Positions 33,412 through 53,206 of a stretch of 64,000 nucleotides of DNA are shown in pieces (position 1 is the first letter of the stretch; the number at the start of each line of letters is the position of its first letter). This DNA comes from Anaerolineae bacterium (lineage in GTDB: Bacteria > Chloroflexota > Anaerolineae > Aggregatilineales > J027). Both the position numbers and the translations under genes were made by a program. Where the stretch lies: NCBI GenBank assembly GCA_019913005.1, contig JAIOHL010000169.1:1-64000 (forward strand), written 5' to 3'. The notes under the pieces are model-generated. The model was not told the DNA's origin and ran no database searches. It worked only from the letters and a program-made list of their open reading frames with translations.

Positions 33412-34214
33412 ATGAAATGAACCCATCCAAAACCGTACCGTCAGCCGACAATCTAGCGTCTATTTCGGCTTATATTCAGGAGACACTATCCAAAAAAAAG
33501 CGCCGAACAAGTAGTTTAGCCACCGCCTTTGACTTCTTACTGTTCAAACGCCGCTACGAGGTGGTGGATTTCTGGTCGCAACTCTTTTTGGGCAGTGAGA
33601 CGAATCACACCACCTTTACCACCCTCGTCGTGAAACGTCTGCAAGCACTAGGGTATATCCCCAAGCGCGAGAATGGCATGGATGCTATCAGTTTCAGTGA
33701 GGGTATTCTTGGCCCGTGCCGTGATATGGTGACAGCCAACGCAGGCCGCAGCCGCACGACGGTGTTTTTTGCGAGTGTGGGTGATTTTCTCTATGTCTCG
33801 CTGCGGGCGGTGTATCGTCCGGCCTTTAGTTTCCTACGGGTGGGGTGGCATCTACTCATGATTGGTGTGTTGGCTTTATTGTTTGCCATACTCGCCACTG
33901 AAGACTACTGCTCAAGCCAATATTCGTACTACTCCTACCCCTACAATGGTTATTCAGTTGGCTGTACGGACAGTGAGTATGAAGACCACGCCGTAGAACA
34001 ATTCGGGCAAGCCTGCCTTGCTCTCGCCGTTGGGTTGACCCTGACACGCATGGGGCTTTCCTTCTGGAAAACGCGCAACCTGTGGACATGGCTGTACGAA
34101 AATTTCAACGAACTTTACCGCGACGATGTAAGTTTGCTGGGCAGTTTGACGCACCTGTGTATTGTGTCCGTTGCGGACGAGTTAGACCTACAGCAGGTGC
34201 TCCAGATGGGATAG
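33408..34214 (+). CDS. Membrane protein of the outer element, 3' end altered by insertion
   Basis: 268 residues, unknown family. Two membrane segments are visible (LLMIGVLALLFAILAT at about 147-162 and FGQACLALAVGLTLTRMG at about 202-219) around a Tyr/Ser-rich extracellular loop. The final codons CAG ATG GGA TAG straddle the 7-bp core of the nested element. Without the insertion the frame would continue at 57257 and read QMGFKIICISRR before a stop, so only about ten C-terminal residues are lost and the protein may still work. It is translationally coupled to the ATPase upstream. Confidence 0.7.
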   Translation: MNEMNPSKTVPSADNLASISAYIQETLSKKKRRTSSLATAFDFLLFKRRYEVVDFWSQLFLGSETNHTTFTTLVVKRLQALGYIPKRENGMDAISFSEGILGPCRDMVTANAGRSRTTVFFASVGDFLYVSLRAVYRPAFSFLRVGWHLLMIGVLALLFAILATEDYCSSQYSYYSYPYNGYSVGCTDSEYEDHAVEQFGQACLALAVGLTLTRMGLSFWKTRNLWTWLYENFNELYRDDVSLLGSLTHLCIVSVADELDLQQVLQMG

Positions 34215-35730
34215 CAGCCATGCTAAACTGCTGAATATATTGAAATATCGGGCTAATTTGAGGGTTCAACCTACCACTATAGTCCCAAGCGACTCCAGAG
34301 CTAAAGATCGAACCCAATAGCACCTTGAGTTGCCCAATAGTTGATCTTCGATAAGTTTCTCCCAGATCTGCAAAGATTGTTTTGATAAATGACATCAGTT
34401 TGTCGATGTTGTATTTATCTATCACCGAGTCGTCTTTAACTATCTGAGCTTTAATCATTTTATCCTCAATAATGGCGCTTTGCTCTTTGAAGATTTCGTC
34501 TGAATAAACTCCGTTCAAATTCTTCTCAACCAAGGTTTTTCTAAGTGCCTTTAACTCCTCTATCTCTTTATCAGCTTCATTCTTGATTTTTAGTAGTCTT
34601 GTCCTTCTATCGTGATAGAGCTTATACATAAACTCGGAGAATAAGCGTAGTGCCTCTTCTTTGGGCTGAATTTGTTTAAGTAGAGTGATCATTGCCTCAT
34701 CTATTTTTTTGACAGGAACACTCTTAGTATTACAGCGCCCTGCGCACCTGTAATAAGCATATTTCTTGCCCATTTTACCCCTACTCCAAGCACCGGTTAG
34801 CCCAACACCACACTTACTACACCTGACGATTCTTCTTAAAGGAAAATCTTCATTCTCAAAAGTTCGCTTAGCTAGCGCAATTTTATTTGGATTCCTGCCA
34901 TCAATGATTGCTTGAACTTTGTAGAATTGCTCTTCGGAGATCATCGGTATATGCTGACCAATGACTTCTTCTGGATAAGTTGGCGAAACTAACTTACCTG
35001 CATAAAACTTGAGTCTAAATATTCTTCCTGCGGTTTGGCTACGAATCTTGTATTTTCTTTTGCCATGAGTTTCTTTTAGTCCCCATTCATTCATCACTTT
35101 TGCGATATCACTCAAGCTTTTTGTTCCTGTTGCCATTAAATCCCAGGCTTGCTTTACCCGATCCCATGTTTCTGGATCTTTGACAGCGTATCCAGCCTGC
35201 AAGATATATCCCAAAGGTGCCTTACCACTAATTTTTCCTGACAAAAACCTAGCTCTTAAGCCGTTTTTGGCTCTTTCTGATCTAATGTCATTATCTAGCT
35301 GAGCAAAGCCCGCAAGTATTGTCTCAACTAATTTCTCTGTGGGGCTATCTCCAGTTGGTTCGGTTGAGGAAATAATGGTGATTTCATTTTCACCTAATTT
35401 TTTACGAATTGCTAAATAGTCAGATGTTTGACGAGAGATTCGATCTAATCGGTATACAAAGACCGCGTCAACTAATTTTTTATTTTTTCGACAGTATTCA
35501 AGTAAGTTGATAAGCACAGGCCGACCCACAATTGACTTAGCCGATCTACCTTCCTCACGAAAGACTTCAATGATCTCGTATCCTCGTTTATCTGCCTCTT
35601 TTCGACAGATTTCTTCCTGTGTGTCGAGAGAGAAATTATCGACTTGCTCTTCTGTTGAGACACGAAGGTAGATAACTGCTTTTTTACCGTTTTCTTTAAT
35701 CACTGGGTATCCCTGTAACTCTCTTTTCAC
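34105..35730 (-). CDS. Large serine recombinase (integrase) of the nested element
   Basis: 541 residues as integrated. The resolvase domain has the catalytic Ser in AVIYLRVSTEEQ and the helix-E region VFVYRLDRISRQTSDYL; a recombinase domain (GKAPLGYIL), a zinc ribbon (CSKCGVGLTG, YYRCAGRC) and a coiled coil (about 378-420) follow. Residues 510-541 are read from outer-element DNA past the attL core and overlap the opposite-strand gene. In the circular form the same frame would end after SPQDPFIF, giving 516 residues. It starts with ATGA overlapping the small gene upstream, so the two are co-expressed. Confidence 0.95.
   Translation of the reverse strand: MKRELQGYPVIKENGKKAVIYLRVSTEEQVDNFSLDTQEEICRKEADKRGYEIIEVFREEGRSAKSIVGRPVLINLLEYCRKNKKLVDAVFVYRLDRISRQTSDYLAIRKKLGENEITIISSTEPTGDSPTEKLVETILAGFAQLDNDIRSERAKNGLRARFLSGKISGKAPLGYILQAGYAVKDPETWDRVKQAWDLMATGTKSLSDIAKVMNEWGLKETHGKRKYKIRSQTAGRIFRLKFYAGKLVSPTYPEEVIGQHIPMISEEQFYKVQAIIDGRNPNKIALAKRTFENEDFPLRRIVRCSKCGVGLTGAWSRGKMGKKYAYYRCAGRCNTKSVPVKKIDEAMITLLKQIQPKEEALRLFSEFMYKLYHDRRTRLLKIKNEADKEIEELKALRKTLVEKNLNGVYSDEIFKEQSAIIEDKMIKAQIVKDDSVIDKYNIDKLMSFIKTIFADLGETYRRSTIGQLKVLLGSIFSSGVAWDYSGRLNPQISPIFQYIQQFSMAAIPSGAPAVGLTRPQRTQYTGASNCPANLHRRGKVR
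34204..34210. other. attL core of the nested element
   Basis: agatggg, shared with 57250-57256. To the left is outer-element sequence (ggtgctcc), to the right the AT-rich recombinase gene. A short identical core at both ends, next to a serine recombinase, is what this enzyme family leaves. Confidence 0.75.
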
Positions 35731-38873: not shown

Positions 38874-39680
38874 GTGATACAATCACTTCAAGCTGCCCAA
38901 ACTACTATGGACAGTACTAAATTACCAACAGCTCAAATAGACATCATCCGCTACCTTTATCGTTTTCGTTTCCTTACTAGTCACCAATTATCTAACCTTC
39001 TTAATCACAAAACTATCCGACTTACTAACTACCACCTGCAAAACCTTTCATCTCAAAACTATATCGGCAAACACTACTCCCGTTCTCTGTCACTAGCTAA
39101 CCAACCAGCTACCTACTTCTTGTCATCGGGGAGTATTAAGCTCTTACAAAGTCTGGAGAAGATCGACAAGCGGGCACTCAGAAGAATCTATCGGGAAAAA
39201 GTACGCTCTCAAGCCTTTATTGACCGCTCATTATTTATGGCTAACTACTTTCTCTTTTTACGGGATGAGTCCAAGAAAACTAACCATACCCTCCACTTTT
39301 TTACTAAAACCGATCTCCTGGCTCACCCTTATGTCATTCACCCCCTGCCAGATGCCTATTTTGCTAGAGTTGGCAAAGATGATGAGACTAAACGTTATTT
39401 TGTCGAGCTGGTAGACGATAACTCCCCAAGATTTGCCCTCAGGCGAAGAATTGAGCAGTACGATGAATATATCGAGGATGGCAAGTTTAAAGAGGTGACA
39501 AATCATCCGTTCCCCAAAATCCTTTTTATCTGCTCAGGCTATGCCAGTTTAATTTATCTCAAAAAACACCTCGAGCGGATATATAACGAAACCTCGCTGG
39601 ATGAAACAGAAATATACCTAGCTACCCAAGAAGAGGCTTTTGAGGGTAAATGGGAACAAGTAACGGCTGAGGATGAATAA
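38874..39680 (+). CDS. Replication-relaxation family protein of the nested element
   Basis: 268 residues from a GTG preceded by ggagagg; an internal ATG at 38907 is possible. The N-terminal winged-helix part (IDIIRYLYRFRFLTSHQLSNLL) and the later VELVDDNSPRFALRRRIEQYDEYIE plus KILFICSGYASLIYLKKHL match the Replic_Relax family, found on plasmids and ICEs and thought to act in replication or DNA processing. It directly follows the coupling ATPase. The outer element holds a homologous pairing at 57.4-60.8 kb. It is the best visible candidate for the DNA-processing factor because no MOB relaxase is seen. Confidence 0.8.
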   Translation: MIQSLQAAQTTMDSTKLPTAQIDIIRYLYRFRFLTSHQLSNLLNHKTIRLTNYHLQNLSSQNYIGKHYSRSLSLANQPATYFLSSGSIKLLQSLEKIDKRALRRIYREKVRSQAFIDRSLFMANYFLFLRDESKKTNHTLHFFTKTDLLAHPYVIHPLPDAYFARVGKDDETKRYFVELVDDNSPRFALRRRIEQYDEYIEDGKFKEVTNHPFPKILFICSGYASLIYLKKHLERIYNETSLDETEIYLATQEEAFEGKWEQVTAEDE

Positions 39681-40195: not shown

Positions 40196-40510
40196 TTACA
40201 ATTTGGCTTTTGGGGCAACTTCGCTGATTCTTCTTTCTCCAAAATACAGATCACGCTCGATCCCTAAACCAAACCTGCCTTTGTAACTTTCTAACTCTGC
40301 CAGGGAGAAATATCCCCACTCGTCGTTATGATCGCCAAAGATTGAGACAAAACCAAAGAACTCCTTTGACTCTGGGTCGTACTCAGTGGCGTACCAAGTA
40401 CCTACCCCCGTTGGGTTAAAAAACTTGGCAATCACCAAGGGATCAGCTGACTCTTCTTGTCTGCCCACTTCAGCAAACCTTTTTAAGAGTGCTTGAGTTA
40501 AAAGCCTCAT
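40196..40510 (-). CDS. DUF2958 protein
   Basis: 104 residues. LVIAKFFNPTGVGTWYATEYDP, FFGFVSIFGDHNDEWGYFSLAELES and FGLGIERDLYFG are the signature of DUF2958, a small family common on plasmids, phages and ICEs, with no known function. It reads away from the DGR genes and probably shares a transcript with the MltG-N-like gene. Confidence 0.85.
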   Translation of the reverse strand: MRLLTQALLKRFAEVGRQEESADPLVIAKFFNPTGVGTWYATEYDPESKEFFGFVSIFGDHNDEWGYFSLAELESYKGRFGLGIERDLYFGERRISEVAPKAKL

Positions 40511-40705: not shown

Positions 40706-41044
40706 ATGGAAAAATTTATCTTGCACCAGAAAACTTATGACTTTATTCTCTGGCTTTACCCAATTATTAATCGTTTACCCAAAAATCACCGACTGATCTT
40801 AGGCAAGAAATTAGAGGAAGAGGGGCTAAATCTACTAGTCAATTTGATTAATGCTAATAATTTGAGAGGTGAACAAAGGCGCTCTTATCAACAAACTAGT
40901 TCAAATGGGTTAGATTTACTACGCATTTTGCTGCGACTGACTAAAGATTTACACCTGATGAGCGTTAAGCAATATATGTTTGGGACGGAAAAACTCAATG
41001 AAATAGGCAGAATGCTGAATTGCTGGATGGGAAGAACCAAGTAA
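40706..41044 (+). CDS. avd: DGR accessory variability determinant (Avd)
   Basis: 112 residues from the ATG at 40706, the typical size; upstream in-frame starts exist at 40679 and 40601 but would extend it past the family's length. The opening LHQKTYDFILWLYPIINRLPKNHRLILGKKLEE is the classical Avd helix, and the rest is an all-helical chain expected to form a pentameric four-helix bundle. Avd binds the reverse transcriptase and template RNA and is needed for mutagenic homing. The order avd-TR-RT is as in the Bordetella phage DGR. It ends 41 bases before the TR. Confidence 0.92.
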   Translation: MEKFILHQKTYDFILWLYPIINRLPKNHRLILGKKLEEEGLNLLVNLINANNLRGEQRRSYQQTSSNGLDLLRILLRLTKDLHLMSVKQYMFGTEKLNEIGRMLNCWMGRTK

Positions 41045-41084
41045 CTGTATCATTATGCATGGGGAAAATTAGCAAAACGCAGCT

Positions 41085-41202
41085 TGCCTTTCTCCGCGGC
41101 GGTAATTGGAATAATACGTCCAACGCCGGGGCGTTCGCTCTGAATCTGAATAATACACCTTCAAATCAGAACAACAATATTGGGTTTCGCTGCGCCAGCG
41201 AT
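41085..41202 (+). ncRNA. DGR template repeat (TR), part of the template RNA
   Basis: 118 bases that align without gaps to the VR at 44635-44752. Of 18 differences, 17 fall on adenines of TR (41105, 41110, 41111, 41113, 41114, 41144, 41149, 41150, 41152, 41157, 41163-41165, 41170, 41174, 41177, 41179), 17 of about 28 adenines from 41101 to 41180; the other is C/T at 41199. Most sites are AAC/AAT codons in the VR frame. The GC-rich invariant end (41180-41198) is the likely initiation-of-mutagenic-homing region. A bulged stem follows at about 41210-41237. The rest of 41045-41441 holds no gene. Confidence 0.97.
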
Positions 41203-41441
41203 TCGACTTGCGCCACCTTTAGTACCCTAAGTGGACGCCAGAACGAGCGGTAGATGTTCACGGATGTCTATCCAGGGTTTTTAATAAGGATCACAGCGAT
41301 TTTCTCCCTCCCGTTTGTGGGAAAACATGATGCCCGTATTTTTACCATTCTCCTTTGGCGGATGGTAAAGTAAATAGGTACTTAAAAACAAAGGGTACGA
41401 GAGGCAAGCCCTGCGAAAGCAGGGTTTGTCGTTTGAGAATC

Positions 41442-42527
41442 ATGTTTAATGACATATGCAAGCTAGAAAATCTATATCTTGCTTTTAAAAAAGCACAACT
41501 TGATAACCACTACAAGCGGAAAGTGTGTGTCTTTGCCTTTCGCCTTGAAGAGAATATCAACCGGCTTAACTGGGAACTACTTAACAATCGCTATACTCCC
41601 CAGCCCTATACTTACTTTGTAGTCCATGAACCAAAACCAAGAGATATCGCCGCTCCAGCGTTTCGTGACAGAGTGTTACAACATTCGCTAGTAGCCAGAA
41701 TCCAGCCACTTTTTGAAAAACAGTTTATCTATGACGCCTACGCTTGCCGAGTTGATAAAGGCACTCATCTTGGGGCCTACCGACTCAAAAAATTTCTCAT
41801 GGCAGCAAGATGTATTTATGGCCCTACTACGCCTATCTACTCTTTGCAGTGTGACATCAGAAAGTTTTTCCAAAGTATCGCTTGGGATAAGCTACTTACC
41901 ATCATCAACCAAACCATTACTTGCCCTAAAACCAGAGATTTAATCGAGAAAATCATCACCACTCATAACGGCAACGAAAGAAACTCACCCGTCAAGAAAG
42001 AGCAACTATCCCTATTTGATGATAGGGCGACTTTTCAAGCTCCAGGTATCAATATTGAGAAACGGGTTGGACTACCCATCGGCAATCTGACTAGTCAATT
42101 ATTTGCCAATATATATCTTAATGAGCTGGATCACTTTATGAAAGACAGGCTAAGACTCAAATGGTATGGCAGATACATGGATGATTTTTATGTTTTACAT
42201 CAAGACAAGGCATATCTTAAAGATCTTGTTACTACAGTCGATGATTTTTTACAGCACAACTTGGAGTTATCCCTTCATCCGAAAAAGCTTAATATTGCCG
42301 ACACTAAGAATGGAGTACCATTTGTCGGGTACCGTGTCTTTTATGACCATATTCTGGTGCGAGGCAACACTCTCTTGAGAATGGAGAGAAATTGGCGCAA
42401 GAAGCAAAAACAAGTTAAAAATGGCATGATTGAACCTCATAAACTGGAAGAAAGTAAAGCCGCCATCATCGGCCATTTATCTCATGCCAATACCTATGGG
42501 CTAAGTAAATGCCTATTTGAGCACTAA
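41442..42527 (+). CDS. DGR reverse transcriptase
   Basis: 361 residues from the ATG at 41442, where homology begins; the frame is open from 41355. The catalytic YMDD is at 245-248, and the DGR-type motif in GLPIGNLTSQ is at 210-219. IPxRDRVLQHSL-type motif 1/2 appears as PAFRDRVLQHSLVARI, and the C-terminal thumb contains FVGYRVF. Length agrees with DGR enzymes and no maturase or integrase domain is attached. It copies the TR RNA with adenine-specific errors, and the cDNA replaces the VR. Confidence 0.96.
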   Translation: MFNDICKLENLYLAFKKAQLDNHYKRKVCVFAFRLEENINRLNWELLNNRYTPQPYTYFVVHEPKPRDIAAPAFRDRVLQHSLVARIQPLFEKQFIYDAYACRVDKGTHLGAYRLKKFLMAARCIYGPTTPIYSLQCDIRKFFQSIAWDKLLTIINQTITCPKTRDLIEKIITTHNGNERNSPVKKEQLSLFDDRATFQAPGINIEKRVGLPIGNLTSQLFANIYLNELDHFMKDRLRLKWYGRYMDDFYVLHQDKAYLKDLVTTVDDFLQHNLELSLHPKKLNIADTKNGVPFVGYRVFYDHILVRGNTLLRMERNWRKKQKQVKNGMIEPHKLEESKAAIIGHLSHANTYGLSKCLFEH

Positions 42528-42583
42528 TTGTAAACAGGCGCTCTTGCGAACCATCATTAATTAATCTAGTATTAAGATAAGGC

Positions 42584-42725
42584 AAATTGGAAGCCAATTT
42601 TGTGGTTGTTATTGGAATTCAAGAATACATGAATAAACCAGATCAAATTACTACTAAAAATGAAGCGTCCGATAGAATCGGACAGTTGAAATTTGGGTGT
42701 TGTGAGGTGGTGACATTTTGTCACC
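42584..42725. other. Three perfect 7-bp hairpins between RT and KilA-N genes
   Basis: Perfect stems with three-base loops occur at 42584-42600 (aaattgg-aag-ccaattt), 42667-42683 (gtccgat-aga-atcggac) and 42709-42725 (ggtgaca-ttt-tgtcacc). The first, followed by ttg, could terminate the RT transcript; the last ends just 9 bases before the KilA-N start and may control its translation or bind a regulator. Confidence 0.65.
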
Positions 42726-42734
42726 GATTGAAAT

Positions 42735-43559
42735 ATGAATAAATTAAAGCAAAGCAACAAAATTATCGTGCAAGGAATAGAGATTGCTACCTTTAGCAAT
42801 CATGAAAATGACTTTATTTCCTTGACGGATATGCTAAAGGCAAAAGATGGTGAATTTTTCATCTCTGACTGGCTGCGAAACAGAAATACGATTGAGTTCT
42901 TGGGAGTTTGGGAAAGTGTTCATAATCTCAGTTTTAATTATGGCGAATTTGCCACAATTAAGAGTCAGGCTGGACTTAATAGCTATAAACTTAGTGTGAA
43001 AGAATGGGTTGAAAAGACTAATGCCATTGGTTTGACTGCCAAGACTGGTCGTTATGGGGGCACCTATGCTCACAAGGACATTGCCTTTGAGTTTGGAATG
43101 TGGATAAACCCTGAATTTAAAGTTTATTTAATTAAGGAATTTCAACGCTTAAAGGATGAAGAAAATCGTCGGCTAGCTTTAGGTTGGGATATCAAGCGAA
43201 CTTTGACTAAGATTAACTACAGAATTCATACAGATGCAGTGCGAGATCACTTAATCCCCCTCAATTTATCCAAAAAGCAGACTAACAATGTTTATGCAAG
43301 TGAGGCCGATGTACTGAATATGGCTCTTTTTGGTCAGACAGCCAAGGAGTGGCGCAACGAAAACCCCCACAAAAAAGGCAACATTCGCGACCATGCAGAT
43401 GTGACTCAGCTAGTGGTGTTGGCTAATCTGGAAGGCATGAACGCCGAGCTAATTCGTTTGGATATGCCGCAATCAAAAAGACTAGTTCAACTTAATCAAG
43501 TTGCAATCAATCAGATGAAGTCCTTAGTAGATCACAACAAGACTAAACAACTAACATGA
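42735..43559 (+). CDS. KilA-N domain protein
   Basis: 274 residues. The KilA-N DNA-binding domain covers about 14-115: FISLTDMLKAKDGEFFISDWLRNRNTIEFLG, WVEKTNAIGLTAKTGRYGGTYAHKDIAFEFGMWINPEF. The C-terminal half (TNNVYASEADVLNMALFGQTAKEWR) is the usual companion. Such proteins are phage and mobile-element regulators or antirepressors. It lies inside the DGR cassette, between the reverse transcriptase and the target gene, and its stop overlaps the target start (ATGA), so both are translated together. A role in controlling the target or the element is inference. Confidence 0.85.
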   Translation: MNKLKQSNKIIVQGIEIATFSNHENDFISLTDMLKAKDGEFFISDWLRNRNTIEFLGVWESVHNLSFNYGEFATIKSQAGLNSYKLSVKEWVEKTNAIGLTAKTGRYGGTYAHKDIAFEFGMWINPEFKVYLIKEFQRLKDEENRRLALGWDIKRTLTKINYRIHTDAVRDHLIPLNLSKKQTNNVYASEADVLNMALFGQTAKEWRNENPHKKGNIRDHADVTQLVVLANLEGMNAELIRLDMPQSKRLVQLNQVAINQMKSLVDHNKTKQLT

Positions 43560-46500
43560 AGAAACTACTAAACAGACTCAAAATCTATTTCTTCTCTCCT
43601 CGCTGGCACTTGTCCAGATTTCAACTGAATCTGTTTACGGTGTTTGTTTCCTCAATCGGTCTGGTAACCGGAATTTATCTAGCCCTCTACCAAGTTTTCC
43701 CTAGTGTGTTTGCTCTGAACGACACCAGTAACACCTGGACATTTAGTGTGGGACAAGCGGCTAACTATACTTATGACAGTAACCTAGTTGCAGTAGACGG
43801 CTCCGGGGCACATCCAGTCTCAGGAGTGAACAAGTTCACTAATCCTGACTTTTCCTCAAATAACTCATCCTGGTCAATTACTCCAATCGCAGGTTCTACC
43901 ACTCCTGCCGGGTATATCCCAGTACCAGGTAACAGTACCTATACCTCAGGCGGAGACAACAAAGCCTTCTTAGCCATGGCCTATGAAGCCAAATATGACT
44001 GTACGGCTGATGGCGATGGAGATACCGCAGCAACATGCTCTGCCCCAGCTGATTCTGGAGCAGGACTAGATTATCGTGATCTGACCTTTGACAGCTCCAA
44101 AGTCGTCTCAACGGCTAATGGTGCGCCAATTGTTCACATCACTCAAACTCAAGCCCTTTCTGCTTGTCCTAGTGGCTATCACCTAATCAGTAACGCGGAA
44201 TGGATGACGATTGTGAGAAACGCCGAAACTCAAACCTCAAACTGGGCAAACGGCACGGTTGGTTCCACCGTGGCAGCAGGTGGCGGGATGTTTAGGGGGA
44301 ATGTGGGAGAAGCCACTAGTGTCGGCTACAACGCCTCCACTGACCCAGATTATGGCACTGGTCGTGATACTAAGGCTAAGCTTACCTTATCGAATGGTTC
44401 AGAGATCTGGGATTTATCTGGTAACGTCTGGGATTGGAATAGCGATACGATTACTGGAGCTGACCAGCCCGATGTGTCTGGACAATCCGGTTTTAACTGG
44501 CGAGAGTATACGGCACTGACTGGATACGGCAGTCTTTCCTATGACCTCTTAAGACCCTCTAACAACGCCTACAACGCTGATTACGGGGTGGGTCGGATTT
44601 ATCATGACAGTAATTCTGTCAGCTCGACAGAATATGCCTTTCTCCGCGGCGGTAGTTGGCTTGGTACGTCCAACGCCGGGGCGTTCGCTCTGACTCTGGT
44701 TTATACCCCTTCGGCTCAGTACAGCAGTGTTGGGTTTCGCTGCGCCAGTGATCCAGTAGACCTCTATCACTCTTATTCCTCTTCATTAGGCCGCGGAGCG
44801 GCCGGCGGCGACCAAATTTTTGTGGGGACAATCTCCGACGCTAAAGTCGTGCAGTCGGTAAATGTCGGAGACACTTCTACCTATGATCTCTCCGCTTATG
44901 TCTATGACAACACTGCCGGAAATGTGGGTGGCACAGTCTCATCTTCTATTGCTCAGCTTTATTACAACGGGGCTACAGTCACTACCACTTATGCCGATAT
45001 GGGCAGTGGTTGGTGGAAGCTAACCGGACAGGTCACCGGAGCAGCGGAAGCCCGTAATTACGGGGTGTTAGTGAAATCCAGCAAGACTGTTATCTTAGAC
45101 GACTTTACTCTGTCAAAAAACGGCACTTACAGTGTCTATACCACGCTTGCTTACTCTAACTCCTCGGTCTCATCCTGGGATAGCTTCTGTGAAGGAACTA
45201 TTACCGGCGGAACTTGTAGTGATGATGGCGTGTCAGCCTCAGGTAACGCCAGTGTGGTTTATCAACTCTGTACTGATGATGGCTCAACTTGTGAGTCAGG
45301 AGGAAGTTGGAAGTACTGGGATGGCGGGGCCTGGACAACGGCTAGTAACACTACGACTCATGTTAATACGGCGGCAGAGCTGACCCAGTCAGTGATGCAG
45401 TCCTTGTCGGTCACCTCCCAGAAGATTGCGGTCAAGGCGATTATGAACTTTGGCGGCGCTGATACTCCGGCTATCACTAATCTTAGTGTGGGGTTAACTA
45501 CCGATACTACCGGCCCAACTACTAACGCCTCAGCGATTGCGGCTACTCGCAGTAATGGCGGGACAACTATCTCCAGTAATGACTGGACGAATAATAACGC
45601 CCCCTATTTCTCCTGGACGGCTGGAGCAGATAACGCAGGCGGAGTGGGACTAAAGGGATATTGTTTGTACTTAGGAGCCGATCCAGACGGAGATCCCGCT
45701 ACCAGTAAAGGCATCTTGGGTACCTCACCTGTATCTACGGCCGGTTCGACTTGCCAGTTTATTGTGGCGGGCACGAGTATTGATTTTGCGACCAGTAGCT
45801 ATCGGGGCGGTACCTGGCTGACAACAGGTAGTGACCCCTATTACCTAAATATCAAGGCGATTGATAATGCGGAGAATGTCTATACGGGCAGTAGTGAGCA
45901 GTTCCAGTTTAGATTTGATAACACCCCACCTACCAATGTTTCGTATGTATCCTGTCCTGGAGGAAGCTTTGCCAATGTAGCCGACATGAACTTTAGTTGG
46001 CCAACCAGCGGGGCAACCGCGACAGTGGATGATCACGCTGGCGTGTTAGGCTGGCAGTACCAAATTAACACTACGGGCGGCACCTGGCTGGGGACTACCA
46101 CCGAGGCAACTCTCGGAGTAACTAACTATATTCCGACTTCCGAAACTTCTCGCACCCTGACCGATGCCCAAGATGGAGGAAGTATCTCGACTGGGAGTAA
46201 CATTGTGTATTTCCGCTCAGTTGACCAAGCTGGGAATGTCAGCTCGGATGCGAGTGTGCGTACCTGTAGCTTGGAGTATGGTGGGGCGGCCCCAACCTTT
46301 GGCGGGAGTGACAGCGTGACTGTAGCCCCAAGCTCTTCTACCTCTAATTCTTTTGCACTTTCCTGGTCTGAGGCCAGTGCCACGGTAGGTCAATCTGTCA
46401 CCAACTACTACTACATGGTGAATGTGTCTCCTCCTTCAACCCTCTCCACTCTGACTGGTAATGCGGCAACTTATGTAGATAACGGTACGTCAACTACAGT

Positions 46501-48175
46501 AAGTGCAGCGGCTCTCCCTGGAGTTAATAAGGGTAGTAATACCGTCTATGTGGTGGCAGTAGATGACGCAGATAACTATAGTCCTAGTAACTACATCTCT
46601 GGCACCTTTACCCTTAACTCGACTGATCCAGACAATGTCAGTAACCTAGTTGCCTCCGACTCGTCAATCAAATCTGAGTCCAAGTGGTATGCCACCCTTA
46701 CCTGGACAGCCCCCACTTATCAGGGAGCAGGAAACTTAACCTATTTAGTCTACCGCTCAACTGATGGTACAACATTCACCCAAGTGGGTACGACCAGTGG
46801 CTTGTCATATGTTGATAACACCCCGGCCTCCACCCAGTATTACTACAAGATTTATACCAAGGACGGCGCTAACGCCACTTCAAGTGGCACTAATGCAGTC
46901 ACGATTACCCCCACCGGACGATATACAACTGCACCAACTCTTTCCTCTGGCCCTTCAACCTCGGGGATTACCACCAAGAAGGCTAAGATTAGCTGGAGTA
47001 CCAGTCGTAGCGCTGATTCCAAAGTCGCCTTTGGCACTAGTAGCGGTTCTTATAACACTGAGGAGCCAAGTAGCTCAAGCCAGGTAACTGACCACGAGAT
47101 TAATCTAACTGGCTTAACCGCAGGTACTACTTATTACTACAAAGCTAAGTGGACGGATGAGGATGGCAATACGGGCGAATCTGAGGAGAAGAGCTTTACT
47201 ACTTCTCCAGCTCCAACCGTGTTTGATGTCTCGGCAGAAAATGTGGGATTAAGCTCAGGAATTATTCAATATACAGTCAAAGACGCTTCTAAAGTCAAGA
47301 TCTATTACGGCACTACCACCAACTTTGGCGGGGTCAAAGAAATCTCCACCTCAACTTCTGAAACTACCTATACCACCCAACTAGCAGGTCTTGATGACGG
47401 TACCAAGTATTACTACAAGATCAATGCCTTTGATAGCGAAAACGCTGAGTACGAGGGCACTATTCTTGACTTTACCACCCTGCCTCGCCCCAAGATTTCG
47501 GGAGTGCGTTTGGAGACTGTGGCTAACGCTGCTCAAACCACCATTCGGGTGACCTGGAGTACCAATACCGAGGTCTCCTCGATTGTTACCTACTACCCAG
47601 AGGACAATCCAGGGGCAGCTAAAGACGAGGTGAAGGTGCTTCTTGAGAAAGGTGCTCACTCAATGCTAGTGCGTGGACTTAACGCCCAAACTAAATATCT
47701 GTTGGTGGTTAAGGGGCGTGATAAGCTCGGCAATGAAGCTGTGAGTGATGTGCAACGCTTTACGACTGCGACTGATACCAGACCGCCTCAAATTCTTAAC
47801 TTAAAAGTGATTGGAGGCACCATTCCGCCAGTTGGTTTTGCCGCAGGAGACGTGAAGGCACAACTGATTGTGACCTGGGATACAGATGAGCCAGCCACCT
47901 CCCAAGTTGAGTTTGGCCAGGGATCGGGTAATACCTATTCGCAAAAATCCCAATTTGACGGCAATTTAACTAACAACCATACCGTGATCTTGTCTGGGTT
48001 AGTACCAAGTCAGGTCTATCATTTACGGGCTATTTCTCAAGATGGAACAGGCAACACCACTAACAGTACCGATATGGTAACGATTGCCCCGAAAGCGACT
48101 CGCTCTGCACTTGACCTAGTGATTAAGAATTTGTCCGAAGCCTTTGGCTTTGTGACCGGAGCCTTGGATAGATAA
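43556..48175 (+). CDS. DGR target: giant anchored surface protein with FGE/C-type-lectin and Fn3 domains
   Basis: 1539 residues. A membrane anchor lies at about 22-47. Residues about 130-400 form a formylglycine-enzyme-like C-type-lectin domain (SGYHLISNAEWMTI, EIWDLSGNVWDWN) ending in the VR at 361-399 (FLRGG to GFRCASD). Then come carbohydrate-binding-like and Ig-like repeats, and from about 1025 several Fn3 modules (VYRSTDGTTFTQV, YYYKAKWTDEDGN, YYYKINAFDSENAEYEG). No C-terminal anchor is seen, so the chain projects from the N-terminal anchor. It is a probable adhesin or recognition protein whose tip is diversified. It is coupled to the KilA-N gene and followed 3 bases later by an ABC exporter. 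Confidence 0.93.
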   Translation: MKKLLNRLKIYFFSPRWHLSRFQLNLFTVFVSSIGLVTGIYLALYQVFPSVFALNDTSNTWTFSVGQAANYTYDSNLVAVDGSGAHPVSGVNKFTNPDFSSNNSSWSITPIAGSTTPAGYIPVPGNSTYTSGGDNKAFLAMAYEAKYDCTADGDGDTAATCSAPADSGAGLDYRDLTFDSSKVVSTANGAPIVHITQTQALSACPSGYHLISNAEWMTIVRNAETQTSNWANGTVGSTVAAGGGMFRGNVGEATSVGYNASTDPDYGTGRDTKAKLTLSNGSEIWDLSGNVWDWNSDTITGADQPDVSGQSGFNWREYTALTGYGSLSYDLLRPSNNAYNADYGVGRIYHDSNSVSSTEYAFLRGGSWLGTSNAGAFALTLVYTPSAQYSSVGFRCASDPVDLYHSYSSSLGRGAAGGDQIFVGTISDAKVVQSVNVGDTSTYDLSAYVYDNTAGNVGGTVSSSIAQLYYNGATVTTTYADMGSGWWKLTGQVTGAAEARNYGVLVKSSKTVILDDFTLSKNGTYSVYTTLAYSNSSVSSWDSFCEGTITGGTCSDDGVSASGNASVVYQLCTDDGSTCESGGSWKYWDGGAWTTASNTTTHVNTAAELTQSVMQSLSVTSQKIAVKAIMNFGGADTPAITNLSVGLTTDTTGPTTNASAIAATRSNGGTTISSNDWTNNNAPYFSWTAGADNAGGVGLKGYCLYLGADPDGDPATSKGILGTSPVSTAGSTCQFIVAGTSIDFATSSYRGGTWLTTGSDPYYLNIKAIDNAENVYTGSSEQFQFRFDNTPPTNVSYVSCPGGSFANVADMNFSWPTSGATATVDDHAGVLGWQYQINTTGGTWLGTTTEATLGVTNYIPTSETSRTLTDAQDGGSISTGSNIVYFRSVDQAGNVSSDASVRTCSLEYGGAAPTFGGSDSVTVAPSSSTSNSFALSWSEASATVGQSVTNYYYMVNVSPPSTLSTLTGNAATYVDNGTSTTVSAAALPGVNKGSNTVYVVAVDDADNYSPSNYISGTFTLNSTDPDNVSNLVASDSSIKSESKWYATLTWTAPTYQGAGNLTYLVYRSTDGTTFTQVGTTSGLSYVDNTPASTQYYYKIYTKDGANATSSGTNAVTITPTGRYTTAPTLSSGPSTSGITTKKAKISWSTSRSADSKVAFGTSSGSYNTEEPSSSSQVTDHEINLTGLTAGTTYYYKAKWTDEDGNTGESEEKSFTTSPAPTVFDVSAENVGLSSGIIQYTVKDASKVKIYYGTTTNFGGVKEISTSTSETTYTTQLAGLDDGTKYYYKINAFDSENAEYEGTILDFTTLPRPKISGVRLETVANAAQTTIRVTWSTNTEVSSIVTYYPEDNPGAAKDEVKVLLEKGAHSMLVRGLNAQTKYLLVVKGRDKLGNEAVSDVQRFTTATDTRPPQILNLKVIGGTIPPVGFAAGDVKAQLIVTWDTDEPATSQVEFGQGSGNTYSQKSQFDGNLTNNHTVILSGLVPSQVYHLRAISQDGTGNTTNSTDMVTIAPKATRSALDLVIKNLSEAFGFVTGALDR
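44635..44752 (+). repeat. DGR variable repeat (VR)
   Basis: Gap-free match to the TR at offset 3550; 17 differences are at TR adenines plus one C/T at 44749. Eleven residues of the target differ from the TR-encoded version (367, 369, 370, 380, 382, 383, 387, 389-392), mostly Asn replaced by Ser, Leu, Gly, Thr, Val, Tyr or Ala. The 3' end ttgggtttcgctgcgccag is invariant. Confidence 0.97.
44789..44803. other. GC-only hairpin downstream of the VR
   Basis: ggccgc-gga-gcggcc forms a perfect 6-bp stem 36 bases after the VR. DGR targets in phages carry a hairpin or cruciform just behind the VR that stimulates homing; no equivalent GC-only hairpin follows the TR. Confidence 0.6.
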
Positions 48176-48177
48176 CT

Positions 48178-48954
48178 ATGAATCAACCGAGTACACATAA
48201 AACTGTGATTAATGTCGATCGTTTAAGCAAAACCTTTGAAGTGAAGGCCACTCGAGTACCAGTCTTAAAAGACATTAACCTTAAAGTTGAGGGGGGCGAG
48301 TTTATTATCATTACTGGCCCGTCTGGATGTGGAAAATCAACTCTTCTACATATTTTACTAGGACTTGAGCCCCCAACTGGCGGGAATGTGGAGTTTTTGG
48401 GACATCAGCTTTATCAAGGGATGAGTGAGGATGAGCGAACGGAAATTCGCAAAAAAGATGTCGGGATGGTTTATCAGCAACCTAACTGGATTAAGGCCTT
48501 AACTGTGTTAGAAAATATCATGTTTGCCCTAAGAATTAACGGTCAAACTAACGAAGAAGCTAAGAAAAAGGCACTCGCGGTACTACAAATGGTGGGAATG
48601 GATAATTGGCAGGACTATATCCCGACAGAGCTTTCTAGTGGGCAGCAGCAAAAAGTTGCGCTCGCTCGCGCTGTGGTGACTAACCCACAGATTATTATTG
48701 CCGATGAGCCAACCGGTAATTTAGACTTTAAGTCAGGTCAAGAACTGATGGAGCTACTGAAAAAACTTAACAGTGAAGGTAGAACCGTAATTATGGTGAC
48801 TCATGATTTGGAGTATATGTCGTTTGCCTCACGCTCCTTGATTATGTTTGACGGCAAGATTGTGGGGCAAGCACACGATCATGAATTGGCAGGCAAAATT
48901 GGCGGGTTTAAAAAATTAATGGCTTCAGTCATGCCGGATATGAAAAAAGAATAG
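48178..48954 (+). CDS. ABC transporter ATP-binding protein (LolD/MacB type)
   Basis: 258 residues. Walker A GPSGCGKST at about 45-53, Q-loop VGMVYQQPNW, signature LSSGQQQKVALARAVV and Walker B IIIADEPTGNLD are complete. It belongs to the branch that powers FtsX-like permeases (LolD, MacB, FtsE). Its partner permease follows after two bases, and the DGR surface protein precedes it after two bases. The pair may help display or release the surface protein, or remodel the envelope; this is inferred from context. Confidence 0.92.
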   Translation: MNQPSTHKTVINVDRLSKTFEVKATRVPVLKDINLKVEGGEFIIITGPSGCGKSTLLHILLGLEPPTGGNVEFLGHQLYQGMSEDERTEIRKKDVGMVYQQPNWIKALTVLENIMFALRINGQTNEEAKKKALAVLQMVGMDNWQDYIPTELSSGQQQKVALARAVVTNPQIIIADEPTGNLDFKSGQELMELLKKLNSEGRTVIMVTHDLEYMSFASRSLIMFDGKIVGQAHDHELAGKIGGFKKLMASVMPDMKKE

Positions 48955-48956
48955 TC

Positions 48957-50930
48957 ATGAAAATATTTAATTTCAAAAAACACGAACAACCAATCTTTAA
49001 GTCACTCATGCGCTCAATTTATGAGATTAGTAGTTTCGTGGTGCTGACGATTCTTTACTCCTTAACCTTGTTTGTAGCTAAACTAGCTAAAAAATGGGCT
49101 AAGCTTAAGCCAATTTCAGATAAGTTAAGTAGCAAAGTAAAGTCACTGGACAAAGCCGATAAAAGTGGTGTTTCCAGACTCTACTTAATTGAGATATCTT
49201 TCAAAAACATGGCCGCCAAAAAGACTCGTACGCTGGTAACAATTGGCGGAATGGCGATTGGGATTTCTTTTATCGTCTTCTTGGTTTCTGTTGGATATGG
49301 TCTGCAACAGCTAGTAATCTCTCGGGTTGCTCGACTGGATGAATTAAAACAAGCGGAAGTTGTCCCTGGATTATCAGCAGATTTGAGTCTGACTGATGAA
49401 ACTCTAGCCAGATTTAAGCAGATTGCTGATGTTAAAGATGCACTCCCCTTAATTGCAGTGGTGGGGAGAGTTTCTTATCAAAACTCTGTTTCTGATCTAG
49501 CAGTGTATGGAGCTACGGCTGATTATCTACGCTACTCAGCCTTACAGCCTGTCAAGGGTAAGCTTTTTGAAAGCAATATGATTAGCTTTGATACTTCAAG
49601 CCTACCACCCGTTTTGGGGGTCTCCTCTGTAGCTCGAGAAGTTGGAGAAGAAATTGGCGAGGTTACGATCTCAATCTCTCAAGGAACTTTCTTAAAAGTC
49701 AGAGAAGAACCAGATACCTCCTCTACGATTATCGGCTATACCAAACGAGTGGAAGGCAAAGTAGAAGGAGTAGAAGTGTGGGGCGAGGGTTATGAATCAA
49801 ATAGTGACTCAGGCAGTGCTGGTGAAACTGAGGACGGAGAGCCACTTGGTAAATGGGTAAAGTCAGATTATTTATTGTGGGATAAGATTGCCTGCAACAC
49901 CGAGGAGTCAGGTGATTGTGAAGATGGTGAGTATCTGGTGGCAAGAGATGATGATAACGCACAAACTCAGGCAGAAGGCTATGTGGCGGAGCTGTCAATG
50001 ACGGTGGAGCCAAAAGAGATAGTGAGTCAAGTTTTGGGAGTAAGTACCGAGGATGATGGGTCACTGCCAGTTGTCGAGATTGCTAGCGAATCAGCTACGG
50101 CTAGTAATCAAAATATTGAGCAGGTGGAAGTTAAAAGCGATGAGAAAAAACAAATCGTGGTGAATCGCTCAGTTTTGCAGCTTCTAAATATTGCTGAGAA
50201 TGAAGCGATTGGCAAAAAGATTGACCTTTCGATGGTAGTGGTGGGAGAACTTTTGGATGATCCTAATAAACGGATTGAATCAGCACCTTTACAATATGAG
50301 ATTGTCGGAGTCATTCCTGATGAGGGAACGCCGATTATTTATGTGCCGTTTATTGATGTTAGGTCAATGGGGGTTAATAAATTCTCCCAAACCAAAGTAA
50401 TTGTGGATGATAAGAGCAACTTGTCTAAAGTAAGAAATACGATTGAATCTGCTGGATATGGAACGGTTTCGGTGGCTGACACGGTGGCTCAAATTGATAA
50501 TTTGTTTGCTAATTTCCGCTTAATCTTGTCGGTTCTTGGAATGGTAGCTTTATCTGTGGCGGCTTTGGGGATGTTTAATACCCTAACAGTCTCACTCTTA
50601 GAGCGAACCCGGGAAGTGGGACTTATGAAAGCGATGGGAATGAAATCAGAAGAAGTTAAGTCACTCTTCTTAACTGAATCAATGATTATGGGTTTGTATG
50701 GCGGGATCTTGGGACTTATTTTAGGACTAGTGGTAGGAAAGGTTTTGTCGATTGCCCTGTCTGCATTATCCATTGTCAAAGGAGTTGGATTTGTCGATAT
50801 TTCTTATGTTCCGGGTATATTTGTGATTGCAGTCATTTTCTTATCAATGTTAGTGGGAATTGCCACCGGCTACTTCCCAGCCAAACGTGCTACTAAGATT
50901 TCTGCTCTTAATGCACTACGCTACGAGTAA
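48957..50930 (+). CDS. FtsX-like (MacB-type) permease with inserted SH3-like domain
   Basis: 657 residues. Membrane segments lie near 23-42, 95-115 and, in the C-terminal FtsX domain, at about 520-545, 575-600 and 615-640 (LILSVLGMVALSVAALGMFNTLTVSLLERTREVGLMKAMG is the family hallmark). The large extracellular loop contains an SH3-like insert at about 235-305 (FLKVREEPDTSSTIIGY, GKWVKSDYLLWDK) with an acidic stretch. SH3 insertion suggests contact with peptidoglycan or the surface protein. It works with the ATPase encoded just upstream. Confidence 0.88.
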   Translation: MKIFNFKKHEQPIFKSLMRSIYEISSFVVLTILYSLTLFVAKLAKKWAKLKPISDKLSSKVKSLDKADKSGVSRLYLIEISFKNMAAKKTRTLVTIGGMAIGISFIVFLVSVGYGLQQLVISRVARLDELKQAEVVPGLSADLSLTDETLARFKQIADVKDALPLIAVVGRVSYQNSVSDLAVYGATADYLRYSALQPVKGKLFESNMISFDTSSLPPVLGVSSVAREVGEEIGEVTISISQGTFLKVREEPDTSSTIIGYTKRVEGKVEGVEVWGEGYESNSDSGSAGETEDGEPLGKWVKSDYLLWDKIACNTEESGDCEDGEYLVARDDDNAQTQAEGYVAELSMTVEPKEIVSQVLGVSTEDDGSLPVVEIASESATASNQNIEQVEVKSDEKKQIVVNRSVLQLLNIAENEAIGKKIDLSMVVVGELLDDPNKRIESAPLQYEIVGVIPDEGTPIIYVPFIDVRSMGVNKFSQTKVIVDDKSNLSKVRNTIESAGYGTVSVADTVAQIDNLFANFRLILSVLGMVALSVAALGMFNTLTVSLLERTREVGLMKAMGMKSEEVKSLFLTESMIMGLYGGILGLILGLVVGKVLSIALSALSIVKGVGFVDISYVPGIFVIAVIFLSMLVGIATGYFPAKRATKISALNALRYE

Positions 50931-51079: not shown

Positions 51080-51415
51080 ATGAACAAAAAACTTATTTCC
51101 CTAGTAACACTTTCTCTTTCATTTCTTCTTCTTGCTACTCCCGCTTACGCCGCCTCTGCCGATGTCACTAAAATCGAAACTTTTATTAAAAGCATCATCC
51201 AAGTACTAGTCACTCTTGCAGGGCTTGTTGCCGCTGGCTTTTTTGTCTGGGGTGGAGTTGGGTATATTACAAGCTCTGGCAACCCAGAGACACTGGAGCG
51301 ATCTAAGAAAACCATCCTCTACTCCGGAATTGGGTTAGCTATAGTCTTGGGAGCCTTTGTTTTAACCAATATTGTCTCTGATCTGGCTACCACTGCCTTT
51401 GGGGCAGGACAGTAA
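51080..51415 (+). CDS. VirB2/TrbC-like pilin
   Basis: 111 residues. A signal peptide (LVTLSLSFLLLATPAYAASA) is followed by two hydrophobic helices (FIKSIIQVLVTLAGLVAAGFFVWGGVGYI and TILYSGIGLAIVLGAFVLTNIV) joined by a short polar turn, the standard VirB2 pilin layout. aaggagg lies 8 bases before the ATG. It is the first gene of the secretion operon and probably the extracellular conjugation pilin or pore subunit. The turn TSSGNPETLERSKKT is shared with the next protein. Confidence 0.85.
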   Translation: MNKKLISLVTLSLSFLLLATPAYAASADVTKIETFIKSIIQVLVTLAGLVAAGFFVWGGVGYITSSGNPETLERSKKTILYSGIGLAIVLGAFVLTNIVSDLATTAFGAGQ

Positions 51416-51449
51416 AAAAATAGTTATTAAGTTTGGCTTATGAAAAGCT

Positions 51450-52730
51450 ATGAAAGTAATACTTCTAACTTTAGGAATCTTAATACCACTTGTCTTTCCT
51501 CAACTTGCTCTTGCCTCAACTGGAGCACCAACGGAGGTAACTACTTTCACAAGTGACACTTTGTCACTAATAACTTTAATCTCGGCCGCAGCAGCGGTCT
51601 TTTTTTTAATTAGAGCCGGTTACATCTACATTACTAGTACGGGCAAGCCAGAAGCCCTGGAGTCAGCCAAGAAAACAATCCGCAACACGCTCATTGGCCT
51701 TGTAGTGGTTCTAGGAGCAAGCCTGATTGTCTCAGTTCTTCAAGGCGCACTTGTGGGAGATGGGAGTAGCGGGAGTGTAGAAACTCTCCCTATTACCCAA
51801 ATAGAGAGCGTTGAGCCACAAGGTGGACTAACGCAAGTACTCATAGATGCAGTAAATGGCTTTATCCAAAACATTGTGGAAAGCTCCACGAAACCAATTG
51901 TTGATGGGATTATGACTTTCTTGGGTACAACCCCTTCACTTCTTGAAAACTCCTCCATTGTGAAATTCTGGCTAACCATGCTTGGTATTGTGGACTCATT
52001 GTTTGTAGTTGTAGTAGCTCTACTTGGACTACAGCTTATGAGTGCTTCAACATTCGGGTTTGAAGAACTGGAGTTTGGGCAACTATTACCTCGGATAGGG
52101 CTTTGCTTCCTGGGAGCAAACACTTCACTATTCCTAGCCGATTATGTGATCAAGGCGAGTAACGCTCTAGTATCTGGTGTGATTGCCTCAACTGGAGGAC
52201 TTAACGAGGCTTGGATTAGTAATGCAGTGACGATTTCTAGCCTTACCAACGGCACAGCCCCCTTTATTATCCTGATATTTCTCCTGATCTTCTTAATCAC
52301 CGCTATTATTCTCTTACTCATGTATATTGGCCGATTGATTGTGATTGCTCTCGGTGCGGTCCTTTCTCCCTTTATCTTTTTACTTCTCACCCTGCCTAAG
52401 ACCGCTTCATTTGCCGAGATGGCGATTAAAGGCTATTTTGTCTCGGTATTTACGATCTTTGTCCACGTCGTCACCATCCAACTGGCTGGAGCCTTCCTTA
52501 CCCTGCCTGAGCAAACGGATAACTCACTTATTTCTGTGGCGGTGGCGATTGGGCTACTATTTACCCTGCTTAAGATCCCACCATTTCTCATGCAGATGAT
52601 GTTCTTCTCTAGGAGCATGGGAGCAGTTCATAGGGTGGGTAAGCAAATAACCAATGTCATTACAACGGATAGTAGCTCAAGAGCGACTAAGGGTGAGGTT
52701 AAAGCTCCCAGAAAGAGAGTTAACCTATGA
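51450..52730 (+). CDS. VirB6/TrbL-like channel protein with fused pilin-like N terminus
   Basis: 426 residues. Residues 1-110 repeat the layout of the preceding pilin, including signal peptide, YITSTGKPEALESAKKT turn and second helix. Residues about 140-400 have five or more membrane helices (LTMLGIVDSLFVVVVALLGLQLM; FIILIFLLIFLITAIILLLMYIGRLIVIALGAVLSPFIFLL) typical of VirB6/TrbL. It forms the inner-membrane channel of the secretion system. The stop overlaps the next start (ATGAG), so the genes are coupled. Confidence 0.83.
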   Translation: MKVILLTLGILIPLVFPQLALASTGAPTEVTTFTSDTLSLITLISAAAAVFFLIRAGYIYITSTGKPEALESAKKTIRNTLIGLVVVLGASLIVSVLQGALVGDGSSGSVETLPITQIESVEPQGGLTQVLIDAVNGFIQNIVESSTKPIVDGIMTFLGTTPSLLENSSIVKFWLTMLGIVDSLFVVVVALLGLQLMSASTFGFEELEFGQLLPRIGLCFLGANTSLFLADYVIKASNALVSGVIASTGGLNEAWISNAVTISSLTNGTAPFIILIFLLIFLITAIILLLMYIGRLIVIALGAVLSPFIFLLLTLPKTASFAEMAIKGYFVSVFTIFVHVVTIQLAGAFLTLPEQTDNSLISVAVAIGLLFTLLKIPPFLMQMMFFSRSMGAVHRVGKQITNVITTDSSSRATKGEVKAPRKRVNL

Positions 52731-53206
52731 GAACCACAATTATTCCAGCTCAAATCACCACCGTTGAAGACAAGATCGCTGGATCACTAAACCTGACTCA
52801 AATCTTAATGTTAATGTTTCCGATTCTTTGGACAGCATTCTTGTACATTCTTATTCCACCTGTAATGGCACTCCCTGGCTACAAACTCACTCTAACCCTC
52901 CTAGTTACTATTATCTCGATAATTTTGGCAATACGGATAAAAAACAAGCTGGTGCTAGAGTGGCTGTTGGTACTCGTTCGCTTTCAAAACCGACCCAAGT
53001 ATTATCTTGCTAACAAAAACAGTCTTTACGAGCGGGAGCTAGACCTACCACAGGAACTAACCAAGTCTGAAAAGGTAAGTAGCGAATCACCTGTAAAAAT
53101 TGTGGACAAGAAAGAACTCACGATCCCAGAACTCGTTAGACTTGAGAGCTTAATTGAGTCTGGCAAACTGGCCGTACGCTATCAAGTCGGGAAGAAACAA
53201 CTATGA
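52727..53206 (+). CDS. PrgI/VirB3-like membrane protein
   Basis: 159 residues. Two adjacent membrane segments (ILMLMFPILWTAFLYILIPPVMALPGYKLTLTLLVTIISIILAI) follow a short IPAQITTVEDKIAGSLNLTQ start, as in PrgI-family proteins of Gram-positive-type conjugation systems. The C-terminal half is soluble and basic. VirB3-type proteins anchor the VirB4 ATPase, which is encoded downstream in two pieces. Overlaps its neighbours on both sides by four bases. Confidence 0.82.
   Translation: MRTTIIPAQITTVEDKIAGSLNLTQILMLMFPILWTAFLYILIPPVMALPGYKLTLTLLVTIISIILAIRIKNKLVLEWLLVLVRFQNRPKYYLANKNSLYERELDLPQELTKSEKVSSESPVKIVDKKELTIPELVRLESLIESGKLAVRYQVGKKQL

Follow-up and report, generated by a model that had tools for sequence, protein, structure and literature searches.

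The locus raises the question of what kind of DNA carries a complete diversity-generating retroelement (DGR) in a genome of the Chloroflexota, and what the protein varied by it may do. The window, as the whole stretch of DNA analysed is called here, comprises 64,000 nucleotides (nt), positions 1–64,000 of the forward strand of contig JAIOHL010000169.1 (C69) in assembly GCA_019913005.1 of an Anaerolineae bacterium. Very probably, the DGR is a module of a Patescibacteria-type integrative conjugative element (ICE) that is integrated in a resident element of this genome, and it diversifies a probable contact protein. Elements of this type are typical of the tiny Patescibacteria, whereas the host is not related to them and has a larger genome. 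An earlier sequence-only reading of the window had recognized the DGR as such but missed the mobile conjugative element around it.

The DGR is complete and real, with the accessory protein Avd, the template repeat (TR), the YMDD reverse transcriptase (RT) and the variable repeat (VR) placed as in the sequence-only reading (Table 1). TR and VR align without gaps over 118 nt and show 18 differences, 17 of them at TR adenines; with 30 adenines in the TR, the hypergeometric probability under random placement is 1.4e-11. In the 107-nt core 5′ of the initiation of mutagenic homing (IMH) sequence, all 17 differences are at adenines (28 adenines, p = 9e-13) and the TR core equals the VR at every non-adenine position. 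The gapless alignment, the 17 of 18 differences and the 28 core adenines had been noted earlier and are reproduced here, as are the 11 changed residues, ten of which come from Asn codons. The restriction of the differences to adenines supports rewriting of the VR from the TR, as also claimed earlier. A search of the TR against its own genome gave two matches at E-value ≤ 0.001, the TR and the VR.

The sole non-adenine difference, a C to T at 41199, lies within the end region formed by the IMH and its TR counterpart (IMH*), and is probably an IMH/IMH* difference rather than noise. In the window and in the related loci L059 and L069, CAGCGATT is found at the TR end and CAGTGATCC at the VR end, so that the IMH at the VR end is unlike the IMH* at the TR end. 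The VR end CAGTGATCC is common to these three and to L064, L065 and L067, where the TR end is CAGTGATCA. The TRs of the latter three already carry CAGTGATC and depart from the VR only 3′ of it. TRs thus appear to depart from the IMH in two ways (CAGCGATT or CAGTGATCA), which may be read as an IMH/IMH* difference of two kinds.

Curated family matches, together with the TR/VR pair, bear out the completeness of the DGR. Avd gives 93.5 bits against NCBIfam DivGenRetAVD (NF033474, curated cut-off 80) and 70 against Pfam bAvd (curated cut-off 40). The RT, with its start taken at the ATG at 41442, reaches 113 bits against the NCBIfam group II intron RT model, below the cut-off of 300, and it clusters with RTs of loci that have adenine-biased TR/VR pairs in a tree that has no non-DGR outgroup. 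The spacer between TR and RT appears to form a structured RNA. An alignment of ten sequences predicts 32 pairs, of which the two best-looking helices (18 pairs) were counted; in 13 of the 18 pairs, one sequence or more has both partners changed. In all, 97.2% of cells are paired, compared with 34–51% in slid controls, over which the structure is favoured since it derives from the same alignment. Four of five measures were reached by 0 of 500 shuffles and the number of pair types by 11 of 500, the shuffles ignoring relatedness. Rfam gave no match up to an E-value of 1 on positions 40700–41500.

The DGR is situated in an inner ICE of 23.08 kb (window positions 34,201–57,281). Contig C200 of the same genome carries a homologous outer element whose sequence runs uninterrupted across the point matching window positions 34,200 and 57,280, an exact empty site. 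The inner junctions are CAGGTGC/TCCAGATGGG and CATCTCCCGC/AGGTGAGC, compared with CAGGTGCAGGTGAGC in the empty site, and the dinucleotide GC is common to both. The insertion cuts an open reading frame (ORF) of the outer element, 268 amino acids (aa) in the window vs. a 294 aa open frame in C200. On excision, the circular junction is predicted to be CATCTCCC-GC-TCCAGATG. No tRNA genes are found in the window; the recombinase end abuts a tRNA gene in L059 (tRNA-Glu) and L065.

The inner element has a site-specific recombinase and precise att junctions, and also the ATPase of a type IV secretion system (T4SS) with a coupling protein. The serine recombinase is 57% identical over 498 aa to that of L059. 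The coupling ATPase (67% identity in L059) falls below all NCBIfam TraD/VirD4 cut-offs. The candidate relaxase gives 37.1 bits against PF13814 (cut-off 25.3) and has no NCBIfam match; PF13814 represents the MobC relaxase class in the portion of PMC5357655 drawn on here. A PLD-family protein is likewise present at the end opposite the recombinase in genomes G301, G635 and G489.

An outer element of about 73 kb, inserted in comM, extends from window positions 31772–64000 on to 104.8 kb of C69. It splits comM, whose N-terminal half is found at 104700–105644 of the same contig beyond the window, and the 8-bp repeat GAAATCGT is present at both outer edges. Its contents include a serine-recombinase-like ORF (586 aa, 103130–104890 of C69, by reading its sequence), two VirD4-like ATPases, a PF13814 gene, ParA and a TOTE-type primase. 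In the host part of the contig, a 765 aa protein (AcsB-like by eye) is 80–83% identical in four genomes of the same class, and in an RpoB tree of 12 rows the host groups with Flexilinea (100/100). The G+C content is 42.6% at 34.2–57.3 kb vs. about 50–51% in the host; the element in G301 (Pacebacteria) shows 42.3%, with flanks of 33–35%. By G+C content the element is foreign to both hosts.

Scanning species genomes for the RT gave 64 loci, the best six of which are titled Patescibacteria (78, 76, 62, 61, 60 and 54% identity). Matches are found in 68 of 301 host-phylum genomes (own genome included), where, apart from the window RT itself, full-length matches have at most 40% identity and fragments up to 44%. 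The Pacebacteria phylum has matches in 120 of 379 genomes, and beyond G301 those over most of the RT are at 42% or less; with so few close matches, this RT lineage is therefore rare. The RT tree, a quick one with midpoint root, support from the Shimodaira-Hasegawa-like approximate likelihood ratio test (SH-aLRT) only and some rows flagged for length or composition, is built of 131 rows, the window plus 130 of the 131 loci entered, with 24 viral loci (L031–L054) and six distant loci (L117–L122) left out. The window falls in an 11-row clade (SH-aLRT 99); of its ten other members, eight are titled Patescibacteria and two just "bacterium" (L065, L067), and by RpoB the L067 genome falls with Pacebacteria. 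Nineteen host-phylum RTs form a clade apart from it (SH-aLRT 99).

TR/VR pairs are found in six of the ten closest loci, with differences at adenines of 14/20 (L059), 16/17 (L064), 19/20 (L065), 17/18 (L066), 16/17 (L067) and 14/17 (L069). The gene order of L059 matches the window over the whole 21 kb, with identities of 78% for the RT, 86% for the target (over 1540 aligned positions) and 83% for the ABC ATPase and MacB-like permease. Further on, the L059 contig carries VirB4 (77%) and M23. VirB4 at 65% identity or more is present in at least 16 copies in 14 of the 379 Pacebacteria-phylum genomes (65–88%), followed by a gap to 45%, among the matches listed; in 251 genomes of the phylum of Flexilinea the best of the listed matches is 41%. 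The RT, target and ABC transporter genes are thus closest to those of Candidatus Pacebacteria, and the phylogeny makes it likely that the element was transferred from a Patescibacteria lineage. A phage origin was rejected: the best RT match is 39% in IMG/VR and 38% among the phage matches listed, and all 142 records are below 60%. A plasmid origin was also rejected, with 39% for the RT and 37% for VirB4 as the best of the matches listed and all counted records below 60%.

The stretches around 16 sampled VirB4 copies were searched with two RT queries. Three hold a DGR-type RT, in G301 (also the sampling centre), G484 and G589, and the RTs of G484 and G589 belong to other lineages. G303 and G309, reached via the RT itself, carry the window-type RT, and G303 has a second RT-like match. 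In the window and G301, the module of DGR, target and ABC genes is directly before the T4SS genes; in G303 it is found beyond VirB4 and M23, and in G309 it stands 3.8 kb away from the pilin gene. G648, with the nearest VirB4 in the sample, has the slot without a DGR, and its DUF2958 and pilin genes are 1.7 kb apart. The DGR is clearly optional cargo of the element. DGR-like RTs of other lineages are seen on related elements at L246/L247 (G303:C122), L237/L238 (G484:C39) and L229/L230 (G589:C1). At L219/L248 (G635:C25, 14.3–25.1 kb) the slot holds 10.8 kb without matches to window genes in place of the DGR module.

The DGR target had been described as a giant surface protein with a C-type-lectin/FGE domain. 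The size stands (1539 aa), and the N-terminal hydrophobic segment and fn3-type repeats suggest that the protein is probably surface-exposed or exported. The FGE part agrees with an FGE-sulfatase Pfam match at aa 185–397 (E-value = 1.7e-7), with the VR at the end of the match; the C-type-lectin fold is suggested by sequence profiles only, among them a weak match to sulfatase modifying factor 2 (1y4j, E-value = 1.3e-4). The ABC pair is found downstream of the target in the window, L059, L061, L064, L067 and L069, with a gap of more than 1 kb between the two genes in L064. The MacB-like permease (48957–50930) contains an inserted stretch, SH3-like by eye.

The VR is internal to the target (aa 360–399 of 1539) rather than at the usual, non-defining C-terminal position. 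It is likewise internal in L059 (347–387/1526), L064 (368–411/1546), L067 (442–484/1626) and L069 (390–430/1558). C-terminal VRs are called near-universal, and explained by cis-acting DNA signals, in the text used from Roux et al. (2021; PMC8144416), so that the window lineage is an exception to the rule as worded there. An internal VR implies retrohoming signals inside the coding sequence. The inverted repeat that follows the VR was rejected as a conserved signal, being imperfect in L064 and not seen by eye in L065, L067 and L069.

A second source of variation may lie just 5′ of the VR. The segment at aa 295–360 of the target (window 44438–44635) is 22% identical between the window and L059, while its flanks are 87% identical. 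The window type is closest to L065 (56%, vs. 32% upstream) and the L059 type to L064 (67%), rows L061, L065 and L066 being partial in this comparison. This suggests that segment types are exchanged by recombination. A search of 11 genomes for a store of silent VR or segment cassettes found none; matches came up in ten of them and, apart from two short ones (G305:C56, G308:C20), belong to the target or to TR-like stretches.

The closest known system is the DGR-bearing element of Ca. Pacebacteria CG2_30_36_39 (L059; MNZB01000002.1), which shares the gene order, the ABC pair, the T4SS, an adenine-biased TR/VR pair and the internal VR. It differs in its location on a Patescibacteria chromosome, the tRNA-Glu at its recombinase end, a Bro-N gene between RT and target, and another 66 aa segment before the VR. 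The DGR of phage BPP-1 is like that of the window in its Avd, TR, RT, VR, IMH/IMH* and hairpin after the VR, but is phage-borne and has a C-terminal VR in a tail protein. No paper on this combination of DGR and conjugative element, on DGRs and type IV secretion in the candidate phyla radiation (CPR), or on DGRs and mating pairs was found by title and start of abstract. Paul and co-workers are said to have dealt with CPR DGRs in 2017.

DGRs in Patescibacteria were already known (PMC8144416, PMC9948471, PMC9938205). In the portion of PMC8144416 consulted, DGR clade 2 comprises cellular DGRs restricted to Patescibacteria, with targets that typically have no recognizable transmembrane or other conserved domain. 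The window DGR is similar in its Patescibacteria-type RT, a likeness that refers to the tree made here and not to a place on the published one. It is unlike that clade, as described in that portion, in its conjugative element, its Chloroflexota genome, its internal VR and a target with a hydrophobic N-terminus and fn3-like repeats. The T4SS has VirB2-like pilins and a PrgI-like protein, as in the Patescibacteria systems of PMC12102498 (cited in part), where 58 MOBC relaxases are detected and 39 relaxase genes are near a coupling-protein gene. It is unlike them in its distinct VirB4 group, several members of which are on elements with a serine recombinase and a PF13814 gene; to the VirB4 of nearly all sampled Patescibacteria the window VirB4 is related at about 45% or less. 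Streptococcal class 8 integrative mobilizable elements share the trio of serine integrase, PF13814/MobC relaxase and VirD4 (PMC5357655, in part), to which the window element adds its own T4SS and a DGR.

Table 1. Positions of the DGR, of the inner conjugative element and of neighbouring features in the window
Feature	Position	Strand	Basis
comM, C-terminal half	31052..31771	-	Pfam Mg_chelatase
Large serine recombinase, 541 aa; frame extends past left element end	34105..35730	-	Pfam Resolvase, Recombinase, Zn_ribbon_recom
Left att core (GC) of inner element	34199..34200	.	Empty-site comparison with own-genome contig C200
VirD4/TraG-like coupling ATPase, 856 aa	36202..38772	+	Pfam TrwB_AAD_bind, TraG-D_C above cut-offs
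Replic_Relax protein, candidate MOBC-type relaxase	38874..39680	+	PF13814
DUF2958 protein, backbone gene adjoining DGR slot	40196..40510	-	Pfam PF11171; 86% identical in L059
Avd accessory protein	40706..41044	+	Pfam bAvd; NCBIfam NF033474 above cut-off
Template repeat (TR), IMH* at 3′ end	41085..41202	+	TR/VR alignment
Hairpin 1 of TR-RT spacer RNA, 10 bp, covarying	41249..41272	+	10-sequence alignment
Hairpin 2 of TR-RT spacer RNA, 8 bp, covarying	41340..41370	+	10-sequence alignment
DGR reverse transcriptase, 361 aa, YMDD	41442..42527	+	Pfam RVT_1; tree
KilA-N protein, exchangeable slot between RT and target	42735..43559	+	Pfam PF04383
DGR target, 1539 aa: N-terminal hydrophobic segment, FGE/C-type-lectin-like domain, about 1100 aa with fn3-like repeats	43556..48175	+	
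Variable repeat (VR), target aa 360–399, IMH at 3′ end	44635..44752	+	TR/VR alignment
Inverted repeat GGCCGC-gga-GCGGCC in coding sequence 3′ of VR	44789..44803	+	Read by eye
ABC ATPase (named by eye) and MacB/FtsX-like permease, 3′ of target	48178..50930	+	
T4SS pilin (VirB2-like), pilin-domain membrane protein (putative VirB6-like), PrgI-like protein (below Pfam cut-off)	51080..53206	+	
TrsD / VirB4 N-terminal-like protein	53203..53820	+	NCBIfam NF041427, NF045971, NF045975, all below cut-off
VirB4 ATPase of the element's T4SS	53813..55612	+	NCBIfam NF045971, 363 bits over cut-off 325
M23 peptidase, presumed cell-wall opening protein of T4SS	55616..56215	+	Pfam PF01551
PLD-family protein, right end of element	56734..57183	-	Pfam PF13091
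Right att core (GC) of inner element	57280..57281	.	Empty-site comparison with C200

In the account proposed here, the ICE integrated by its own serine recombinase into the resident outer element of the Chloroflexota genome. The RT with Avd would copy TR RNA into adenine-mutated cDNA, as the TR/VR pairs and known DGR biochemistry suggest. This cDNA would rewrite the internal VR in the FGE/lectin-like domain of the 1,539-aa, probably exported protein, which the element-bearing cell would probably use for contact with other cells.

Several observations weigh against this account. No DGR RT was found by the two RT queries in 13 of the 16 VirB4 stretches, at least four of which (G456:C42, G464, G543:C4, G543:C35) end at contig ends at or before the slot. 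The G+C content of the element (42.6%, 42.3%) fits neither host (51%; 33–35%), and the phylum of the host rests on Flexilinea, the only Chloroflexota reference among the RpoB rows. The TR/VR record of L059 is less clean than that of the window, as six of its 20 differences fall at bases other than adenine. Searches of L060, L062 and L063, where the contig stops 5′ of the target, yielded no TR/VR pair, nor did the search used for L061, where the target frame (11313–16133) is interrupted. An AlphaFold model of target aa 54–440 from five alignment rows gave a predicted local distance difference test score (pLDDT) of 28 and was unusable. The inverted repeat after the VR is clear by eye only in the window and L059, which has one compensated pair.

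The role of the target is a separate matter. That it is a DGR-varied contact adhesin is the leading guess, because the target and ABC genes immediately precede those of the T4SS; a general role in attachment is almost as good a fit as that of a T4SS adhesin. It is a serious possibility, at a little below an even chance, that the target serves the bearer cell in attachment, in host or prey recognition or in surface sensing, with the DGR as beneficial cargo unrelated to conjugation. The varied placement of the module agrees with this (absent at this place in G648, beyond VirB4 and M23 in G303, 3.8 kb off the pilin gene in G309), but its position directly before the T4SS genes in the window and G301 is a fitting place for an adhesin gene. 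The cited literature, taken in part, likewise points both ways: cellular DGR targets are linked to cell-cell interaction in PMC8144416, while Gram-positive/monoderm T4SSs rely on surface adhesins, none such as PrgB being detected in Patescibacteria according to the text used from PMC12102498. By analogy with phages and their tail fibres, the conjugative element might use the DGR to keep changing its own mating adhesin and so dock on new recipients, a tentative and rather doubtful proposal.

It is somewhat less probable still that the DGR is a relic, which rewrote the VR in the past and is now inactive in its Chloroflexota host. There is a single TR and a single VR, and L061 shows that such loci can decay; however, Avd, the RT, the target and the transfer genes all have open reading frames, and the identity of TR core and VR at every non-adenine position leaves room for little ordinary drift.

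The gene between RT and target is exchanged among the loci: KilA-N in the window and L062, Bro-N in L059, NYN in L064 and AbiEii in L065 and L067. RT and target are nearly adjacent in L061 and L069. AbiEii and KilA-N/Bro-N families are common in phage conflict, and their presence in this slot would fit a target that is an immune-type or phage-decoy receptor diversified in a phage arms race. This is improbable, as a Pfam scan of the target found no effector domain and the target occurs together with the ABC ATPase and permease and at several loci also with a T4SS. A chimera of assembly or binning that joined a Patescibacteria contig to a Chloroflexota contig, to which the drop in G+C content from about 50% to 42.6% and a bin contamination of 2.95% might point, is very improbable and was rejected because of the empty site and the divided comM: both junctions fall at one point of the continuous C200 homologue with a shared 2-nt core, a serine recombinase gene is at one end, outer-element sequence is on both sides and the comM halves flank all of this on the same contig.

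The reading of the DGR as a module of a Patescibacteria-type ICE thus stands as very probable. It places a DGR, at nucleotide precision, on an integrated conjugative element in a phylum without this DGR lineage otherwise in the samples, and such an element offers a path by which DGRs could have made the sporadic transfers that are inferred for them. The finding also bears on the role of Patescibacteria T4SSs, most of which are argued to serve roles other than conjugation in the part of PMC12102498 drawn on: a T4SS with Patescibacteria VirB4 kin is found here on a recombinase-bounded element in another phylum, and the same element pairs a relaxase candidate with a hypervariable large protein. 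If the element does vary its own mating adhesin, this would help to explain how a Patescibacteria-type element reached another phylum. The T4SSs of Patescibacteria, for which no adhesin is reported as detected in that part of PMC12102498, would then gain a self-diversifying one.

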